This document shows, in pieces, positions 20,601-46,599 of a stretch of 64,000 nucleotides of DNA. This DNA comes from a bacterium (GTDB lineage: Bacteria; Patescibacteriota; Minisyncoccia; Phycocordibacterales; UBA1006): NCBI GenBank assembly GCA_030433255.1, contig JAUIMI010000001.1, positions 149,378 through 213,377 of the forward strand, given 5' to 3'. The position numbers and the translations under genes were made by a program. The stretch's first letter is position 1. Every line of letters begins with the position of its first letter. The notes under the pieces were generated by a model. That model was given only the letters and a program-made list of their open reading frames with translations. It did no database searches and had not been told where the DNA came from.

Positions 20601-20862
20601 ATCGTTTGTTATCAATACCATGGTCTTTTTGTTCCATGGTTCTAAATGCCATGTATGCATCAACACCAATAATGGGTTTAATATCGTTTTTAAGACACTG
20701 TTTATAAAATTCAATACATCCATACATTGATCCGTAATCTGTTATGGCTAAGGCATTCATTTTATCCTCTTTTGCTTTAGCTATCATATCTGGAATTTTT
20801 GATAACCCTTGGAGGAGTGAGTAGTGTGAATGGTTATGTAAATGTATAAATTTTTGAGACAT
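17677..20862 (-). CDS. dnaE: DNA polymerase III subunit alpha
   Basis: The replicative polymerase catalytic subunit, 1061 aa. An N-terminal PHP domain starts with HLHNHSHYSLLQG, the palm carries PDVDLDISD (catalytic aspartates), then the beta-binding and helix-hairpin-helix region follows and an OB-fold near the C-terminus (QKTVIGGIIEQVKEI...). It is about 100 residues shorter than the E. coli protein, mainly by lacking the tau-binding C-terminal domain. TATACT at 20869-20874 ends 6 nt before the ATG. No other polymerase subunit is nearby. Confidence 0.95.
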   Translation of the reverse strand: MSQKFIHLHNHSHYSLLQGLSKIPDMIAKAKEDKMNALAITDYGSMYGCIEFYKQCLKNDIKPIIGVDAYMAFRTMEQKDHGIDNKRYPFTLLAYNLTGYKNLMKLVTQSYIKGFYYRPRMDKELLREHSEGLICMSGPIFGEVGQAIITKQFNKAKEIVQEYQSIFGKENYYLEIMFNDHIDGLETINKDIAQLSQETGAPLVATNNNHYINPDDREAFDTLLGVSTTGNKIGSGFMRGDFHFASTEEMLEKFKDYPEAIENTVNIANRCDLEIDIDSWYFPDIDIPEGKNYDDYLREVTYEGISKRGMERTPEVEERIEYELGIIQSKGYSSYFLIMADLVQAAKDMGIYTNTRGSAAGSLVSYLNFVTKVDPLEMGLPFERFMNPGRKGIPDVDLDISDIYRDKLIDYAREKYGNKAVAQIGTFGTMAARGSVRDVARALDYPYEKGDVIAKLIPMGAQGFPMTIKRALKEEQELKDLYNQDADTKRIIDLAQKIEGCARHISVHAAGVVISPTRVDDFCPVQMDPKGGKIITQYDMYTGDRDGVVNMPKFDLLGIRNLTILANAVQLVKEIRGIDIDLNTVNLDDPKTYELLARGSTMGVFQMASSGMTKYIMELKPSNIYEISAMIALYRPGPLEFIPDYIERKRNPELVEYLDPRMKEILEPTYGIMVYQEDVMQIAVDLAGYDWGMADKLRKAIGKKIPEMMAEQKEKLVGGCIERGMDKKAAKEMWRQIEVFAAYAFNKSHAASYGRITYETAYMKANYSVEYMTAMLTAESGDTDKIAAIIHECENMNIKVFPPDINECFGGFTVVDNPEDPENKAIRFGFYTIKNFGESIADAIIEERKRAGKFESLEGLLNRIRHKNFNKKSLEALIMAGALDSFGERGQLLYNLEELLAYNKGQKSMHADQGSLFGDNTSHITLKETEPMSHEDKLAMEKEILGVYVSGHPLESFRSRFEKSKSNINMILEDEIKDSQKTVIGGIIEQVKEITTKKGQKMAFITLSDFTGTIEGVVFPKTYESNKDIIMPDTIIAAQVTASDRDNQKTIIINGIKKLEK

Positions 20863-20980
20863 ATTAAGAGTATATCAGAGATTGTGTAATTCATTTATAT
20901 TTTATTTTTTTATGTATATAATAGATAGCAATTATTCTATTTTTATTTTTTGATAGAATATTTTAAATTTATTTATTATT

Positions 20981-21553
20981 ATGAAGAAAAAAGGTTTTAC
21001 ATTAGTAGAGTTACTTGTTGTTGTTTCAGTAATTGGGGTATTAACAACAGTTGTTCTTTCATCATTGAATGATGCTCGAGATAAGGCAAAAGAAAAGGCT
21101 ATTTTAGCTGAAGTTCGAAGTGTGTACCAAGAGGGTGAAATTTATTATTCAGGTTCTTTCGAATATGCACCTGGAATTAAATCAATTTCAAATTGCCCTA
21201 CCTCTGAAGATGCATCATGGGGATTCTTAGGTACAGAAAAAGGACTTGCACTTATTAATTCAATTAAAGAGAAGGCAGGTGCAACAAATCCTTATGACGC
21301 AACTTGTGCAATTTCTCCAGAAAGTTGGGTAGTATCAGTTAATGTTTATGACGCAGGTGTTCTTGCTTCATCAACATTGGTAAATACTGCTTATGCACAA
21401 TCAATTGAAGGATATATTTGTTTTGATAATGGGCGACGTGTGCAAACATCAAATAATACTATTCAGCTTGATAGTAATGGCGATGCGCGACAAGACCCTG
21501 TTGGACCAGGAATTGAAGTCGTTTCAGCTAACGTGTTTGCGTGTCAACAATAA
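20981..21553 (+). CDS. Type IV pilin-like protein
   Basis: The 190-aa prepilin has the signal MKKKGFTLVELLVVVSVIGV with Glu at mature position 5, a hydrophobic helix, and LSSLNDARDKAKEKA after it. The globular domain contains two pairs of Cys. It lies immediately upstream of the structured RNA and the reverse transcriptase but appears to be an independent unit. It is one of three scattered pilin genes in the window; no assembly machinery is seen. Confidence 0.85.
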   Translation: MKKKGFTLVELLVVVSVIGVLTTVVLSSLNDARDKAKEKAILAEVRSVYQEGEIYYSGSFEYAPGIKSISNCPTSEDASWGFLGTEKGLALINSIKEKAGATNPYDATCAISPESWVVSVNVYDAGVLASSTLVNTAYAQSIEGYICFDNGRRVQTSNNTIQLDSNGDARQDPVGPGIEVVSANVFACQQ

Positions 21554-21561
21554 TACTCTTA

Positions 21562-21587
21562 ACATTAGAATTTTAGTATTCTAATGT
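21562..21587 (+). terminator. 10-bp hairpin after the pilin gene
   Basis: ACATTAGAAT paired with ATTCTAATGT and a 6-nt loop. No T-run follows, so termination is uncertain. Its right arm overlaps the left arm of the long-range helix closing the RT-associated RNA, so the two pairings compete. Confidence 0.5.
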
Positions 21588-21887
21588 AACAATCTATATA
21601 TTCACTTCTTTGCTCTTATGCAAAGTTATCAATAGTTATTGATATGCTATAAAAAATATGTCTGATAACATAATTAACATATGAAATAATTTAAATCGCC
21701 TTGATGAACCGGGTGTCATACCTTTTATCATGGGGTCCCGATCGGGAGATCCCATGACTCCAGTACAACACCGTAGTGGCTCTCTTAACGAAAAATTCCT
21801 TCAATTACGAAGAAAAAGTGTCTTATTAGGACATTCTATCTACACTATATACCTCGTATATAGTGTGTGATATATGGATTGTTACAT
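21584..21887 (+). ncRNA. Structured RNA upstream of the reverse transcriptase, closed by a 17-bp terminal helix
   Basis: Positions 21584-21600 pair with 21871-21887 over 17 bp with a single G-U, enclosing about 270 nt without a convincing ORF. Inside are a CTTTGC/GCAAAG stem (21608-21625), a TATCAA/TTGATA hairpin (21627-21644), a strong hairpin at 21728-21757 (TCATGGG/CCCATGA plus inner TCCC/GGGA) and an 11-bp perfect hairpin at 21842-21866. The middle is richer in G+C than its surroundings. The RT start codon lies 15 nt after the closing helix. This resembles the a1/a2-closed msr-msd RNA of retrons in architecture, but the RT does not show retron-specific motifs. It could be template, substrate or guide RNA of the RT (inference). 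Confidence 0.65.
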
Positions 21888-21902
21888 TATAATACTATTA
21901 TT

Positions 21903-23138
21903 ATGAATACGTACGAACACATAATTGAACTTGATAATATACGAGAAGCATACCTCGAAGTGGTTCAAAAACTCGAAGAATCAAACCGTACGTATCGCTA
22001 CCGTGCCATAGATGGCTATACTCTGAGTGATTATGATTTTATTTCTGAGCAACTTATTCAAGATATTCAAACAGAGATAATACAAGAAAAAAAGATCACT
22101 CCTGCATTAGAAATGCATATTCCAAAAAGAAACAAACCAGGAACTCGGCCCGTGTACATTCATACAATAAAAGAGAGGGTTAAAGCACAAGCAATCTATC
22201 GTGTTATTGCTCCTATTTTTGATGATTATTTTTCCCCATATCTTTTTTCATATAGAACATCTCACCCTCATTATAAGGCTATTAGAACGATTGTTCGTAA
22301 GTATAAAAGAGACCTTTCTGGATATATGATAATTGGTGATATATCAAGTTATTCTGATATTATTAATCCAGATATTTTAAAACAACAAATTAAGAAAATA
22401 GGTTTTGAGCAAAAGGTAAACTCACTACTTGATTTATACGTTGACGCACAACTGATTGAAAAAGGAGTCATCTCGTCATCTCCTCATGGTATTATTACGG
22501 GTTTGCCAATTACCGTAATGTTTAATAATTTATATTTAGATTATTTTGATAAACAAATTGGCGGGCAGGTAGCATTGTATCGTCGGGTAGGTGATGATTT
22601 TATTGCATTTGATACATACGAAAACTTACAGAGTATTCATAAAAAAATGGTTGCGTTACTAGTTAATGTTAAAATTCAACCAGAATATCAAAAAATATCT
22701 CTTCAAAAAACATCAGAACCATTTACTTTTTTAGGGTATCTTTTTTGTAATGGTGTAATTTCTATCCCCCATCAATCAATTAAAAATATTCAAATACACA
22801 TTCGAAAATCTCTAGCATTTTATCAGTTTAATACTCAACAAGAAAAAATCACATTATTTAAAAAAAATCTTTTTCAGGGAACATCATTAAAACATTATTT
22901 TATACAAATTATTCGACAGTATAATCATGTGAATGATGTTGAGCAAATTAAATTCCTTTCTCAGTATTTTTACAAAAGAGTAGTCATTTATTTCTTTGGT
23001 TCTTACTCTCCTCGTAATCATCGAAAAACCAAAAAACTTCTTAAAGATAAAAAGATTAATACTCCTTCATTAATGAAGTATTATATTGCATTTCATACTG
23101 GAGCATACAAAGGTAAATACTTAAAGTACATAAAATAA
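21903..23138 (+). CDS. Stand-alone reverse transcriptase, group II-like/unclassified
   Basis: The start MNTYEHIIEL at 21903 is preferred to GTG 21867, which lies inside the RNA. The 411-aa protein shows RT motifs in order: KPGTRPVYIHTIKERV (fingers), SPYLFSYR, the first catalytic Asp in IIGDISSYSDI (about residue 146), HGIITGLPITVMFNNLYL replacing the usual GxPQG segment, YRRVGDDFIAF with the Asp pair at about 231-232, and FTFLGY. Catalytic residues are intact. There is no maturase zinc/HNH domain, no retron VTG segment and no DGR-type accessory gene. It leads an operon: the next gene starts 2 bp after the stop. Confidence 0.9.
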   Translation: MNTYEHIIELDNIREAYLEVVQKLEESNRTYRYRAIDGYTLSDYDFISEQLIQDIQTEIIQEKKITPALEMHIPKRNKPGTRPVYIHTIKERVKAQAIYRVIAPIFDDYFSPYLFSYRTSHPHYKAIRTIVRKYKRDLSGYMIIGDISSYSDIINPDILKQQIKKIGFEQKVNSLLDLYVDAQLIEKGVISSSPHGIITGLPITVMFNNLYLDYFDKQIGGQVALYRRVGDDFIAFDTYENLQSIHKKMVALLVNVKIQPEYQKISLQKTSEPFTFLGYLFCNGVISIPHQSIKNIQIHIRKSLAFYQFNTQQEKITLFKKNLFQGTSLKHYFIQIIRQYNHVNDVEQIKFLSQYFYKRVVIYFFGSYSPRNHRKTKKLLKDKKINTPSLMKYYIAFHTGAYKGKYLKYIK

Positions 23139-23140
23139 CC

Positions 23141-24799
23141 ATGAATACTATTAAACAACAAATAAATTTATTTAAAAAACGAAGTCAGATTCGTACCGAA
23201 ATGCACCCAATTACCTTTGATAGACATGCTCGAAATTATATAAAAAAACTCATCAGAACATATAAAAAAAATATTCTATCTCTTTTTGGGATTGTATTGT
23301 TGATTAGTGTAATTGAGATAGTTATCCCGCTTGTTGTTAACGTTTTTTTAGAAAGATTTGGTTTTAACTTACAGTTACAAAATCTTTACATTATTCTCTC
23401 TATTCTTGTACTTATTCTTATTTTGTATATTACTGCTAATTATTTTGCTATTGGTATACAAAAAAGAATTAGTTTAGATATTATTAATCAAATACGAGAA
23501 GATTGGTTAAAGATATATTTAACAAAAAATCCGGTACGTTTTAATAATAGAGATAAGGGGAGTATTTACGTGAAAATAAGCTATCACCTTTCTTTACTGC
23601 AAATGGGTCTTAACAACTCACTTTTTAATTTTTTTCAATGGGGGTTATTTATGAGTGGTCTTTTGGTTGTTACTGCTGTCTTAGATACTCGTTTGTTTGT
23701 TATTTCTCTTTTTTTTATTCCACTTAATCTTATTGTTCTTTTTATTAGCTATGTATTATCTGCACATTATTTAGCCAAAGATCAAACTCTTTACTCTAAA
23801 TTACTTCGATATATTTCTGATACCTTTAATAATTTTCAGCTTATAAAAGCATTAAAAAAAGAGAATGAATTTCTTAAGAATGTTAAGCATATTGTTGAGT
23901 TAGATAATTATTTCCGAATAAAAAGAGAAATTGTATTAAACTTGGGTAATAAAATTATTTTTGTAGTAGTAACCTTACTTTCTGCAGCTATGTATTTAAT
24001 ATATTTATACTTTCCTTTTATTTCATTAGATACAACTGTTGCTTCGGTAATCCAGGTACTTATTTTTGCATTACATTTAAAACTTATTTATCTTAGTTTA
24101 CGTATTGGGTTATTTTATTTCCCGCTAAAGTTGGGTTTATATTTATGTGTCCCTCATGCGATAAATAAAAAGTCTAAAAAAATATCCAATATTTCTTCTT
24201 TAAAATTTCATGCAAAAAAGGTGCGACTTCACAATCAAGGAGAGTATTTTAAAAATCTCTCATTTCAGTTTGAAAATAGTAAAAGCTACCTATTTCATGA
24301 TGGATCTCATACCTCTAATAATCTTGAATATCTTTTTCCAGGCATGGCACCAAAATCAATAGGAAGAAATTGGGTTGTTACTGTTAATGATAAACGCCTA
24401 ACTTATAATCAATGGAACAAGTCTGATAAATCTATCTATATGATTAATCCAAGTATAGAGAGTGAAGTAAGTCTTTATGAATTTTTTAATAATACGTTTG
24501 ATATTGAGGTGTTAAAAGATTTTTCTATTTTTGATTTTATTTTTGAGAAGAAAAGGTTTCTTGGGGAAATATTAACTTCTGAACGTACAAGTTTTACTGA
24601 TGTATGCTTATTACAAATTGCATACTGTTTGATTCACCAACCTGAAATAATTATTATTGATGCAAGTGTAGTTGATATTAATTATCCAAAAATCAGACAA
24701 GCTCTTGATATTTTAAACTCACAATCAAGAGGTATTATTATTTCCTTTAGTTATCTAGAAAAACCTCCGCAAAATTATGATGTCATTTATACAATTTAG
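23141..24799 (+). CDS. ABC-exporter-like membrane protein with a degenerate ATPase domain
   Basis: The 552-aa protein has about five to six membrane helices in residues 40-330, laid out like an ABC exporter half. The C-terminal region keeps the size and strand order of an ATPase domain but not its motifs: no GxxGxGKS/T Walker A (SYLFHDGSHTSNN stands there), the signature is replaced by LTSERTSFTDV, and the Walker B strand PEIIIIDASVVD lacks the catalytic Glu. It should therefore not hydrolyse ATP. It is translated in the RT operon, 2 bp after the RT and overlapping the next gene by 23 bp. A scaffold, pore or sensor role in the membrane is plausible (inference). Confidence 0.75.
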   Translation: MNTIKQQINLFKKRSQIRTEMHPITFDRHARNYIKKLIRTYKKNILSLFGIVLLISVIEIVIPLVVNVFLERFGFNLQLQNLYIILSILVLILILYITANYFAIGIQKRISLDIINQIREDWLKIYLTKNPVRFNNRDKGSIYVKISYHLSLLQMGLNNSLFNFFQWGLFMSGLLVVTAVLDTRLFVISLFFIPLNLIVLFISYVLSAHYLAKDQTLYSKLLRYISDTFNNFQLIKALKKENEFLKNVKHIVELDNYFRIKREIVLNLGNKIIFVVVTLLSAAMYLIYLYFPFISLDTTVASVIQVLIFALHLKLIYLSLRIGLFYFPLKLGLYLCVPHAINKKSKKISNISSLKFHAKKVRLHNQGEYFKNLSFQFENSKSYLFHDGSHTSNNLEYLFPGMAPKSIGRNWVVTVNDKRLTYNQWNKSDKSIYMINPSIESEVSLYEFFNNTFDIEVLKDFSIFDFIFEKKRFLGEILTSERTSFTDVCLLQIAYCLIHQPEIIIIDASVVDINYPKIRQALDILNSQSRGIIISFSYLEKPPQNYDVIYTI

Positions 24800-26258
24800 T
24801 AAAAATAAAATTAATAAAAGAAAAAAAATACTCAAAAAGGTTTTTGTGTGGTTTTTTGTCGTCATATCTTTTCTATTTTTTATATCACTATTATTAAGTG
24901 ATTCTTTTTTGGAAGAATATCCTCATAGCGCTAAGACAGAAGAACACTTTTCGTATGATTTTTTTGGAGATATATATTTTAATGACATGGATGGTTTTGA
25001 TGCATATTCTCAGTTAACGTATGATGTCATAAATTCTGCTTCTGATTCAATACATATGGCAATGTATTCTATTAGTGATCAAAATATTGTTCAGCTATTG
25101 AATAAGAAAAAACAAGCTGGTGTAGATGTGCAAATCATTATTCCCAAGAGTAAGGGGGTTCAACATGAATATACCTTTGGGCTTACTGATTTAGAACCTA
25201 TTGAAGTAGGTAGTATTTCTTCTCAGAATGAATCAACAGATAGTGGTATGAATGGGGAACTAATGCATCATAAATTCATACTTGTAGATGCCGATACGGA
25301 TAATAGACAGCTTTTATTTGGAAGTTCAAACCTAACATATCTTCAGCAAAAATTTGATTCAAGTTTTCAATTATATACTCGAGATGCTTTTATGATTCAC
25401 TCTTTTTTCGAAGAATTTAAACTTCTTAAGAGGGATATTAATGGTCTCAAGAAAATTCGATCAGGAGTATTCCAACCCTTTACCTCTAAAGGAATATATT
25501 CAAATGGTTTTATGGAAACTTGGTTTGGGCCTGGTTTTCAAAAAAATTCAATAAAAGAAAGAATTTTAAAAGATATTGAAGAAGCAAAGCATTCTATTGA
25601 TATTATTGGTTGGCGTATTAATGATATTGATATCTTGAACGCACTTGTTCGAAGTACCAAAAGAGGGGTGGGGGTGAGAATTCTTGTTGATGATTATTAT
25701 ATGTGGGATGAGTTGTCTGTCTCTCAAAGAACAATAAACAGTAACGTAATACAGGTAGCGAGTGATTCTTATATGCATGTCATAAAAGACAACATTATTA
25801 ATTTTAACGAAGAAAATATATCTGATAATTTTAATCCTTTTTTGCACCATCACGTCATTATTATTGATGATACAAATCTTATCGCTGGAAGTAATAATTG
25901 GACACAAGGAGGTTTTTTCTACAACGATGAATCTATTATCGTAACCAATATTGATGCCCTAGTAACTGAATATCGGGAAGAATTTGATTATTTATATAAT
26001 CTTTTAGTAGCGGATACTTTCAATTTTAATTTAGACAATAATAAATTAGAGATTCTTAATTCTGAATACTCTGATACTAGCTCTTTGGTTGTGTATATTG
26101 AAAAAAGTAAACCTCATTGGGAAGGAGAAATTTGCTATCAGACTTTTATTAATCAAAATATAGAAATAATTATTCCAGATATTTGTATTACTGATACTAC
26201 CCGATTTTTTATCACCGAGGGTGATACTCTTAAAGCAAGTGCATATATCTATGAATAA
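24777..26258 (+). CDS. Membrane-anchored phospholipase D-fold protein with two HKD regions
   Basis: The 493-aa protein has a hydrophobic anchor near residues 20-42 and two PLD repeats. The first has MHHKFILVDAD followed by LFGSSNLT, a complete HxKx4D motif. The second reads LHHHVIIIDDTNLIAGSNNW, where the Lys is replaced by His. PLD enzymes cleave phosphodiesters in lipids or nucleic acids, or act as cardiolipin synthases. The anchor suggests action at the outer face of the membrane. It overlaps the preceding gene by 23 bp and rnhB by 8 bp, so the operon is tight. Whether it acts on DNA or lipid is unknown. Confidence 0.85.
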   Translation: MMSFIQFSKNKINKRKKILKKVFVWFFVVISFLFFISLLLSDSFLEEYPHSAKTEEHFSYDFFGDIYFNDMDGFDAYSQLTYDVINSASDSIHMAMYSISDQNIVQLLNKKKQAGVDVQIIIPKSKGVQHEYTFGLTDLEPIEVGSISSQNESTDSGMNGELMHHKFILVDADTDNRQLLFGSSNLTYLQQKFDSSFQLYTRDAFMIHSFFEEFKLLKRDINGLKKIRSGVFQPFTSKGIYSNGFMETWFGPGFQKNSIKERILKDIEEAKHSIDIIGWRINDIDILNALVRSTKRGVGVRILVDDYYMWDELSVSQRTINSNVIQVASDSYMHVIKDNIINFNEENISDNFNPFLHHHVIIIDDTNLIAGSNNWTQGGFFYNDESIIVTNIDALVTEYREEFDYLYNLLVADTFNFNLDNNKLEILNSEYSDTSSLVVYIEKSKPHWEGEICYQTFINQNIEIIIPDICITDTTRFFITEGDTLKASAYIYE

Positions 26259-26847
26259 AAAATACACACATATTGTTGGGATTGATGAGGTAGGTCGAGG
26301 TCCAATAGCTGGGCCAGTATCGGTGTGTGCTTTTTATATTCCTTGCCAAAACAACACAAAGGTTTTACTTGCGCTTGATGGTATTACAGATTCTAAAAAA
26401 CTGAGTGAAAAAAAACGGGAGCAATATTTTGATATCATTAAAGAGCTTTCCAAAAAAGGTGAATGTGGATATGCTATTGCACATGTTTCTGCAAAAAGTA
26501 TTGATACAAAGGGGATTATTACCGCACTTACTTCTGCATTACAAACTGCATTACAAAAAATAAATTTAAACCCTCAGACAACATTTATTTATTTGGATGG
26601 TGGTTTATATGCGCCAGAAAATTATGATCAGGAAACAGTTATAAAAGGAGATAGTAACATTCTACATATTAGTGCTGCTTCTGTTATTGCAAAGGTGCTT
26701 CGTGATAAAAAAATGATTAATTACGCAGAGAAATATCCTCATTATGGATTTGAACAACATAAGGGGTATGGAACAAAAAAACATAAGGATGCTATAGATA
26801 CATATGGGGTAACCAAGATTCATAGGAAGACGTGGATAAAAAATTGA
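26251..26847 (+). CDS. rnhB: Ribonuclease HII
   Basis: This enzyme cleaves the RNA strand of RNA-DNA hybrids and single ribonucleotides in DNA. The start MNKKYTHIVGIDEVGRG is chosen because GIDEVGRGPIAGPV holds the first catalytic Asp-Glu; later Asp residues lie in YLDGGLYAPE and the AASVIAKVLRDK region. At 198 aa the length is normal. The first 8 bases overlap the PLD gene, placing a housekeeping RNase H at the end of the RT operon, where it could process RT products or simply be read through. Confidence 0.93.
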   Translation: MNKKYTHIVGIDEVGRGPIAGPVSVCAFYIPCQNNTKVLLALDGITDSKKLSEKKREQYFDIIKELSKKGECGYAIAHVSAKSIDTKGIITALTSALQTALQKINLNPQTTFIYLDGGLYAPENYDQETVIKGDSNILHISAASVIAKVLRDKKMINYAEKYPHYGFEQHKGYGTKKHKDAIDTYGVTKIHRKTWIKN

Positions 26848-26900: not shown

Positions 26901-27608
26901 ATGAGTGTATTCAATAATATGTTTCCTTCTGATTTTGAAGATAATTCATATGTATATGCTTCTTTTATAAAAGAAAATCAGGGTATTCCCAAAATCTCTT
27001 TTATAAAAAAAATGCATGAATTACGACCTATCGGAGGAACATTAAGATTACAAAATGAACAATGGTTTGATGTGGAAATTTATCTTAAAGCATTAGGTTT
27101 TTTACTAGAATCATTATGTGATAATAATAATTTTCTTTATTCAAAAGAACAACAGGAAGAAATACTTGTTAATGAGCGTAATCGGGATAGTGAACGTGGC
27201 GAATATGCCCCTTACTTTCGAGTTGCGGTGTTTAATTTTTTAAAAAAAACAGGAACCTACCCCTTACATATGACATACATTGGTCATGTTCAAGGTAGAG
27301 ACAAGAGCCTAACAAAGCATTTGTTTTATATTCAAGAGTGTCTCACTTTTATGAACAATGAGCGTGTTTATCTTCTGTCTTCTTCACGTGAGTATTATCA
27401 GTTTAGAAAAATATTCACAGATACCTATAGTGTAGGTATGTTCGATTTACCTTATTCAGTTAATCATATTTATAAGGGGAAATTTCAGGCATATTACATC
27501 CTACTTAAGAAACTTATTATTTTTTACAATCAAAAAAAATCCTCTAAAAATAAAGAAGAGGCAAAAAATTTCATTAAGTTCCTTAATGAAACTCAAGAAA
27601 CTCGTTAA
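26901..27608 (+). CDS. Hypothetical protein, 235 aa
   Basis: A soluble, mixed-charge protein (SVFNNMFPSDFEDNSYVYAS...) with many aromatic residues and no signal peptide or recognised domain. It follows rnhB by 53 bp on the same strand and ends in a terminator at 27601-27630, so it could be the last gene of the RT operon transcript. Function unknown. Confidence 0.55.
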   Translation: MSVFNNMFPSDFEDNSYVYASFIKENQGIPKISFIKKMHELRPIGGTLRLQNEQWFDVEIYLKALGFLLESLCDNNNFLYSKEQQEEILVNERNRDSERGEYAPYFRVAVFNFLKKTGTYPLHMTYIGHVQGRDKSLTKHLFYIQECLTFMNNERVYLLSSSREYYQFRKIFTDTYSVGMFDLPYSVNHIYKGKFQAYYILLKKLIIFYNQKKSSKNKEEAKNFIKFLNETQETR

Positions 27609-27630
27609 TTGTTTAAATTAACGAGTTTTA
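27601..27630 (+). terminator. Terminator at the end of the RT operon region
   Basis: CTCGTTAATT paired with AATTAACGAG, followed by TTTTAT. The stem includes the stop codon of the 235-aa gene. Confidence 0.75.
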
Positions 27631-27632
27631 TA

Positions 27633-27660
27633 TTGACAATATATATATTTATGATATTAT
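27633..27660 (+). promoter_or_regulatory. Consensus-like promoter plus a tandem 11-mer in the leader
   Basis: TTGACA (27633-27638) and TATTAT (27655-27660) are separated by 16 bp. The transcribed leader then holds the 11-mer GTCAAGACATA twice (27671 and 27684, period 13). Confidence 0.6.
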
Positions 27661-27715
27661 ATATCATGAAGTCAAGACATAGGGTCAAGACATAACTTTT
27701 AAATTCTTTATACAA

Positions 27716-28395
27716 ATGAATACTCATTTACCAAACTTTTTCAGTGCAGGGCTCTTTGTTCAAAATATGAATGTACTTACGGTACTTCATAAAAAGTACT
27801 CGGTAACTAAGTTACCTGGAGGAACTTTTAATGGCGATTTACGAAATTGGGAAGTCCGAGGTGAAGGTGGTGCTTTTTATAACCCTTTTCAAAAAAAGAT
27901 GTTAAAAAGAAGCTTATAAATACGATACAAAAATCGTACAGTAAGGAAACCTACCTAAATCACAAAAATAATTTCTTGGCTCTTGTAGATTATGTTGTAA
28001 ATAATATGACAACACCACAAGAAATTCACTTAGTTGTTGAAATGATTGAAGAGACAGGAATTATTCCTGTAGAATTAGATCTTGCATTAGAGCAAGAAAT
28101 AACCGAATCTTTCAGTCAATATTTTTTTACGATTGGAACAGCGTATACATACAATAAAGATCGTAATTCAATTATTGAAATTAAAGATTTTTCTTGTGAT
28201 ATACCAGAGAATGATAGAGATTTCTTCTGTAGAGACATGGATATAGATAAAATAGAAATTTTAGATATTCTTGATGTTTCTAGGGGTTATTCTGAAGATG
28301 GTAAGACTGCAAAAAGAGAAATTAATACTGCTCATAAGCATAAGAATGCAATTAATGGGTTTATTATGAATGCTCAAAAAACACAAACCATGTAA
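27716..28395 (+). CDS. NUDIX-like protein split by a -1 frameshift at A AAA AAG
   Basis: The first frame (27716-27919) gives VLTVLHKKYSVTKLPGGTFN, a NUDIX-type strand and Gly pair. The second frame, open from 27883, has no start codon before TTG 27976 and carries EMIEETGIIP, the EExG half of a NUDIX box. The overlap contains CAA AAA AAG at 27890-27898, the dnaX-type slippery heptamer. A -1 slip joins them into about 226 aa with the two halves of the motif in order but with a long insert between. The join is inferred from domain logic. The alternatives are a pseudogene or a one-base assembly error. Confidence 0.55.
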
Positions 28396-46279: not shown

Positions 46280-46599
46280 TTTTAATATTGATTATTTGAT
46301 AAGTAACAATCTGTTAATGGCAGACAAAAAGCCCACCACCAGATAGAACTATTGCTAGTTCTCACATACAAGTTTCCAAGATGTGGCACGTAAAGAACAA
46401 CCCTGATGATGGGGTTTTTATTCTTTACGTGACTTTATGGTCATATTTGAGACATACCTTATATATAGCCTATGCATAACATATACATGAGATATAAGGG
46501 TTAGCCCACTAGATTGTTAATTTAATTTTAAATCATTCTATAAAAATAAGAAAGAGGTGAGGGCTTGTAAATTATTATACACCAGTGTATAATTTTAAC
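46280..46599. other. Non-coding stretch with a long hairpin and the MerR promoter
   Basis: No supported ORF. It contains the hairpin CACGTAAAGAA...TTCTTTACGTG (46388-46432), whose loop holds a second AACCC/GGGTT hairpin with a T-run, and the regulator promoter at its right end. Confidence 0.55.
46565..46593 (+). promoter_or_regulatory. MerR-type operator-promoter
   Basis: TTGTAA (46565-46570) and TATAAT (46588-46593) are spaced 17 bp. The perfect inverted repeat ATTATACAC-CA-GTGTATAAT (46574-46593) covers the spacer and the -10 box. Transcription would begin at or next to the ATG at 46600. Confidence 0.75.

Follow-up and report, generated by a model that had tools for sequence, protein, structure and literature searches.

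The window, a 64,000-nucleotide stretch of a Patescibacteria genome (G000), contains a structured non-coding RNA (ncRNA) followed by genes for a reverse transcriptase (RT), an ABC-exporter-like protein, a PLD protein, and RNase HII (Table 1; coordinates are window positions). The plus-strand order and the short gaps described in an earlier note on this DNA were confirmed by the coordinates and by Pfam, with the RT matching RVT_1 (1.2e-9), the ABC-like protein ABC_membrane (3.7e-14; ABC_tran unmatched), the PLD protein PLDc_2 twice (3.7e-37), and rnhB RNase_HII (7.4e-40). The view of the locus as one unit, also put forward in that note, holds in part: the RNA, RT, pseudo-ABC, and PLD are shown by comparison of the loci to form one conserved unit travelling together across distant genomes, whereas RNase HII is a housekeeping copy missing from distant cassettes. 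The ncRNA–RT–pseudo-ABC–PLD set constitutes a new accessory cassette, rare in Patescibacteria and documented here by a small number of cases, five RNA lineages and four full cassettes. No described system with the same set was found, in line with the earlier note, in the libraries and papers searched (most subscription-journal papers being outside the search).

Table 1. Features of the cassette and its downstream neighbor in the window
Feature	Position	Strand	Size	Gap to preceding gene (bp)	Remarks
Structured ncRNA	about 21577-21894	+	~318 nt		Closing helix P1: 21577-21596 with 21875-21894
Pseudoknot core	21625-21690	+	66 nt
Pseudoknot (PK) strand	21625-21631	+			GTTATCA; pairs with P4 apical loop TGATAAC, 21663-21669
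P4 outer helix	21635-21639 with 21686-21690	+
P4 inner helix	21643-21646 with 21678-21681	+
P4 internal loop	21682-21685	+		 	UGAA
Hairpin P5	21729-21756	+			Strong, GC-rich; directly 3′ of core; in MFE folds of window, G003, G1093, G720, and L154
RT gene	21903-23138	+	411 aa		RRVGDD family; catalytic D146, D231, D232; S151 at steric-gate site
ABC-exporter-like gene	23141-24799	+	552 aa	+2	Degenerate ATPase domain
PLD gene	24777/24780 (start) to 26258	+	492 aa	-23	Membrane-anchored; double PLD domain
rnhB (RNase HII)	26251-26847	+		-8	Housekeeping neighbor outside cassette

A search among CPR relatives for the four-gene order proposed in the earlier note recovered RT–ABC–PLD, in identical order, in four genomes—those of the window, a congener (G003), a member of another family in the same order (G1093), and a member of another class (G720)—but rnhB is missing at the two distant loci. 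G003 shares 54% (RT), 48% (ABC), 42% (PLD), and 63% (rnhB) identity with the window, and its cassette occupies the same position, between dnaE and the downstream core genes. In G1093, found by a PLD profile, and G720, found by an RT profile (259 bits), the three genes lie on one strand in unrelated surroundings. Every complete locus was found to carry the RNA, ABC, and PLD together with the RT, so that the refuting case named in the earlier note, an RT without these partners, did not arise among the complete loci. Viral contigs scanned with the initial RT, PLD, and ABC alignments yielded distant matches or none; a four-sequence RT alignment led to a fifth locus, L154, in which the RT (38% identity) is situated at the edge of an IMG/VR contig that ends after this gene. 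Phage and plasmid RTs are only distantly related (<30% identity among the matches listed), and the plasmid ones are mostly annotated as group II intron RTs. The window's own RT alone stood out in a class sample of 384 genomes, as did only those of G000 and G720 in a phylum sample of 380, and a search of relatives of G1093 and G720 added no further member. The distribution of the cassette is rare and sporadic, with identical partners at unrelated loci, and no recognized defence islands were seen around the cassettes. A contig 98.4% identical to the window, L032 (JAGQYS010000144.1), is labelled as belonging to a Flavobacteriaceae MAG and is probably a mis-binned Patescibacteria contig.

Within the genus, strong RT, ABC, and PLD matches were found only in G000 and G003, the three genes being unmatched in the other congeners compared, several of whose genomes are incomplete. 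Because of this restriction, and because the dnaE–rnhB junction is empty in G009, the three genes appear to have been gained or lost together. The spacing between dnaE and rnhB without the cassette is 37 bp in G009 and 84 bp in G006. As rnhB, present in a single copy in the window's own genome, adjoins dnaE in such cassette-free congeners, it is the resident gene at a variable spot; a role as cassette component was rejected on these grounds and on its absence from G1093 and G720. The junction itself (window 20862-26251) is an insertion site whose content varies across the genus: G009 and G006 have no insert, G008 has SNase and winged-helix genes, and G012, a genome of the same family, has bPH_2 and TPR genes. 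Type IV pilin-like ORFs were noted beside the RNA in the window (20981-21553) and in G720 (L149 4952-5479), probably by coincidence, and the upstream pilin ORF was dropped as a cassette member because it is absent in G003 and G1093. Past rnhB, the window contains fast-evolving orphan ORFs (26901-28395; 235 and 139 aa), for which congeners have weak counterparts. The PLD gene of G1093 is followed, after 18 bp and in the same orientation, by genes for an intact ABC-2 ATPase and permease (L150 6328-7902, minus strand).

The presence of a structured RNA upstream of the RT, asserted in the earlier note, was borne out by a fold with z = -8.9 that none of 100 dinucleotide shuffles equalled in stability, and the segment probably reaches somewhat further at both ends. 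A stable RNA precedes the RT at all five loci (z = -8.9 in the window, and -10.3, -6.9, -4.1, and -10.3). The co-variation that had been proposed as a check was found as compensatory changes in the closing helix, P4, and the pseudoknot. Between G000 and G003, the 19 pairs of P1 show five double and three single compensations, with none broken. When G000, L032, and G003 were aligned on sequence alone, 13 pairs changed on both sides were counted in the closing helix, P4 with its hairpin, and the pseudoknot, versus 4.6 in shuffles (0 of 500 as high).

More detailed comparison revealed an H-type pseudoknot core of 66-68 nt common to all five lineages, in which a strand of 6-7 nt, located 2-3 nt before P4, is complementary to the P4 apical loop, and the 3′ side of the P4 internal loop is invariably UGAA. 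The sequences of the paired strands differ among lineages—GTTATCA/TGATAAC in the window, GTTATCA/TGATAAT in G003, GCATTA/TAATGC in G1093, GGCATTA/TAATGCC in L154, and ATACCTG/CAGGTAT in G720—with complementarity kept throughout. Paired cells make up 95.9% of the core alignment, and nine pairs show double changes, with a covariation score reached by none of 500 shuffles and far lower values in slid controls; these counts are biased in favor of the structure because boundaries and structure were picked by eye before counting. The argument against chance is that all five lineages fit a single architecture of unvarying length. The fold is shown by comparison to be conserved by compensatory change. 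A covariance model (CM) of the RNA matched only the two cassette genomes among 61, and no Rfam family, including group II introns, matched it; it represents a new pseudoknotted RNA family. A template was looked for inside the RNA and not found, and a search of concatenated RNA segments for a DRT2-like endless ORF gave nothing clear, with nearly all open segments being multiples of three, as by chance. The pattern TTATCAA...TATGAAATAA was found in 36 stretches of the viral contigs, none with a matching RT in the part of the contig covered, and these were taken as chance occurrences.

The ABC-like protein keeps a multi-helix exporter membrane domain, and its ATPase half, called dead in the earlier note, is indeed degenerate in all four complete loci: in a four-way alignment, LSGGQ and the H-loop are absent in every member, the Walker-B Glu is absent in three (G003 has DE), and Walker A is found in G1093 only. 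Since its dN/dS is 0.10 (window versus L032; few substitutions), the degenerate protein appears to be maintained by purifying selection. Its single-sequence fold was left out of the analysis (mean pLDDT 48).

The one full HKD motif ascribed to the PLD protein was recovered in domain 1 of all four proteins (HxKx4D; HHKFILVD in the window), while domain 2 carries HxHx4D in all four (HHHVIIID in the window) and not a second HxKx4D. A single transmembrane helix is predicted at about residues 16-45, after a positive N-terminus, and from this hydrophobic segment and the preceding positive charges an extracytoplasmic location is predicted for the catalytic part. The window and G003 proteins also share a C-terminal extension with a conserved Cys pair. 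Among solved structures, the PLD protein comes closest to MitoPLD, NucT, and Nuc, with PDB matches reaching E 1e-15. With PLD nucleases and lipases such as these and DrmC, the cassette protein has in common PLDc_2 domains and the HKD motif; unlike them, it is a two-domain protein with HxHx4D as second motif in all members, and it is encoded outside a DISARM operon.

An RT tree with a small reference set (24 other RTs from DGR, group II, and other groups, class 2 UG RTs not being among them) unites the five members in a single clade (support 100/100, stem 1.8). The clade is separate from the RTs compared, counter to the earlier note's second refuting case, in which the RT would fall inside a known family with other partners. 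The catalytic Asp residues were confirmed to be intact, as that note had read them, and the RT is shown by comparison to be a distinct family with these aspartates preserved; its dN/dS is 0.19 (window versus L032; few substitutions). The best structural match of its AlphaFold model (mean pLDDT 73, C-terminal part weak) is DRT9 (9vma; E 1.1e-14, TM 0.60), followed by GsI-IIC and G2L4, and by sequence group II intron RTs are nearest among solved structures. The best PADLOC models are generic RT and RT_UG26, the latter being the best-scoring UG model; the RT was not filed as UG26 because a group II intron RT scores equally on that model.

Several known classes were rejected. Group II intron RTs (GsI-IIC, E. 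rectale) and G2L4 are the nearest RTs by sequence and share the RT core, but they carry an aromatic gate and YADD or YIDD, whereas the cassette has no Rfam intron match and no Pfam maturase-domain match, and TIGR04416 gives 106 bits against a cut-off of 300; G2L4, with YIDD against VGDD in all five members, was rejected likewise. The DGR motif (I/V/L)GxxxSQ is absent from RT block 4, which reads TGLPITV, QGIPLVS, TGTPLYA, and QGVPLVA, and a DGR was rejected on this basis; the single match to the motif, FLGYSFSQ in G720, falls outside block 4, and no Avd was found among the annotated neighboring genes. A CRISPR-associated RT was rejected as well, the protein being RT-only, without a Cas1 fusion, and its neighbors dnaE, rnhB, and others.

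Class 2 UG/DRT systems are closer in layout, in that the RT is found with an adjacent conserved structured ncRNA. In DRT2, DRT9, and DRT10, the RT is accompanied by a neighboring ncRNA that serves as template (PMC12039810, PMC12483538, PMC12632851), and DRT10 requires a membrane protein (PMC12632851). DRT10 (UG17 RT, SLATT, and ncRNA) shares with the cassette a small operon of RT, structured ncRNA, and membrane partner, but its partner is SLATT instead of ABC-like and PLD proteins, its 137-nt ncRNA lies upstream of the SLATT gene, and its RT has YVDD (PMC12632851). The UG17 model also gives the cassette RT a lower score than do the generic RT and UG26 models, and DRT10 was set aside for want of the SLATT partner, which accompanies most, though not all, UG17 RTs (PMC8934634). 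DRT2 similarly has an RT of 425 aa with no additional domains, immediately preceded by a pseudoknotted ncRNA of 280 nt (PMC12039810), but it has no partner genes, the cassette RT gives weak Drt2 model matches only, and the repeat ORF is unrecognized in the cassette RNA. DRT9 (UG28), the top fold match, has an ncRNA upstream and sometimes a SLATT membrane protein, but differs in its ~499-aa RT (18% identity), poly-U template, and SLATT partner (PMC12483538).

The best reading, to which we give about an even chance, is that of an ncRNA–RT system resembling class 2 DRTs and coupled to a novel membrane pair through sensing and PLD action. A product of the RT and RNA that is sensed at the membrane is proposed because DRT2, DRT9, and DRT10 use an ncRNA template and DRT10 needs a membrane protein; by the same analogy, we infer a role in antiphage defence or self-destruction and, beyond the RT and RNA belonging together, every step of the following scheme. 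The RT would bind the pseudoknotted RNA and, like the RTs of DRT2, DRT9, and DRT10, polymerize on a template located in this RNA or close to it, and a trigger such as phage infection would release or lengthen the product. The degenerate nucleotide-binding domains of an ABC-like dimer would then sense the product, or the RT–RNA particle, on the cytoplasmic side, and a conformational change in this dimer would license the PLD protein to hydrolyze phospholipid of the membrane or incoming nucleic acid, so that either the infection or the cell itself is brought to a halt.

The active site of the RT bears on what such a product might be. The motif YxDD of the other RTs compared is VGDD in all five members. 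Furthermore, the steric-gate site, the fifth residue after the first catalytic Asp, is S/S/A/A in four members versus F or Y in 59 of 59 other RTs—a comparison set consisting mostly of DGR RTs of the class, with DRT sequences not among them—and S/S/A/A/S in the five members of the tree set, whose 24 other RTs all have F or Y. The block-4 Gln is also lost relative to the 59 RTs, and when the RT is aligned by hmmsearch to solved group II RTs, the gate and VGDD residues fall opposite FF and YADD. In MMLV RT, F155 is the equivalent gate against ribonucleotides, and F155V raises NTP use (PMC8857657). These replacements suggest that the RT may use ribonucleotides; because the steric gate is missing and YxDD has become VGDD, the product may contain them and, given this altered active site, may be partly or wholly RNA instead of the DNA or RNA–DNA hybrid proposed as the signal in the earlier note. 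A stronger version, in which the RT is a ribonucleotide-incorporating (RdRP-like or mixed) polymerase making an RNA or chimeric signal from the ncRNA to which the rest of the cassette responds, draws on the same replacements, on the MMLV precedent, and on a weak Pfam RdRP_1 match around GDD, under the cut-off. However, a single residue is insufficient to make an RNA polymerase, an aromatic residue at D+4 (Y/F150) might replace the gate, and DRT references were outside the gate comparison, so that this version is considered unlikely, albeit with an appreciable chance of being right. More doubtful still is the full combination, in which the RT, devoid of gate and YxDD, would copy its own pseudoknotted RNA into RNA or RNA–DNA chimeras and the dead ABC protein would be a transmembrane receptor switching on an outward-facing PLD.

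Members of the phylum Patescibacteria have an episymbiotic lifestyle. This lifestyle, the predicted outward topology of the PLD protein, and its resemblance to NucT and cardiolipin-hydrolase-type PLDs would fit a cell-surface device unrelated to phage, with the PLD as a NucT-like surface nuclease and the ABC-like protein as its anchor, serving nucleic-acid uptake or attack on neighbors; such a device would leave the RT and the RNA, which are present in every case, without a role, and we consider it very unlikely. The least probable alternative is a retron variant, in which the RT would make msDNA from the RNA and ABC/PLD would be a toxic effector: the RNA lies directly upstream of the RT, is closed by long inverted arms like a1/a2, and is followed by possible effector genes, as in a retron layout, but NAxxH and VTG—the motifs defining retron RTs, although not every retron RT has them (PMC4244168)—are absent in all five RTs, no retron model is among the good PADLOC matches, and DRT9 and group II RTs are structurally nearer, so the cassette was not classed as a retron.

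RT systems with their own ncRNA have recently been the source of several unexpected DNA-writing mechanisms. To these, the DRT-like reading adds an RT clade of its own, a new family of pseudoknotted RNA, and a membrane pair that the libraries and papers searched do not report alongside any RT, in a host group, the ultra-small Patescibacteria, about whose defences little is known. The loss of the gate in every member raises the question of whether an RT can evolve into a natural ribonucleotide polymerase, and a selected, motorless ABC exporter is a possible route for a nucleic-acid signal across the membrane. If the polymerase makes RNA, the cassette would be a new kind of system; otherwise, it would be an RT with ncRNA and effector, already known as a type.

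Two further elements were observed away from the cassette. A borderline Rfam match to LOOT RNA is located at window 46345-46471 on the minus strand (47.3 bits versus a gathering threshold of 46.4). In addition, G000 contains a second RT (C4:52631-53455, minus strand; locus L034), which is DGR-like, with RYADD and 23% identity, and contains stops when the whole match is translated.
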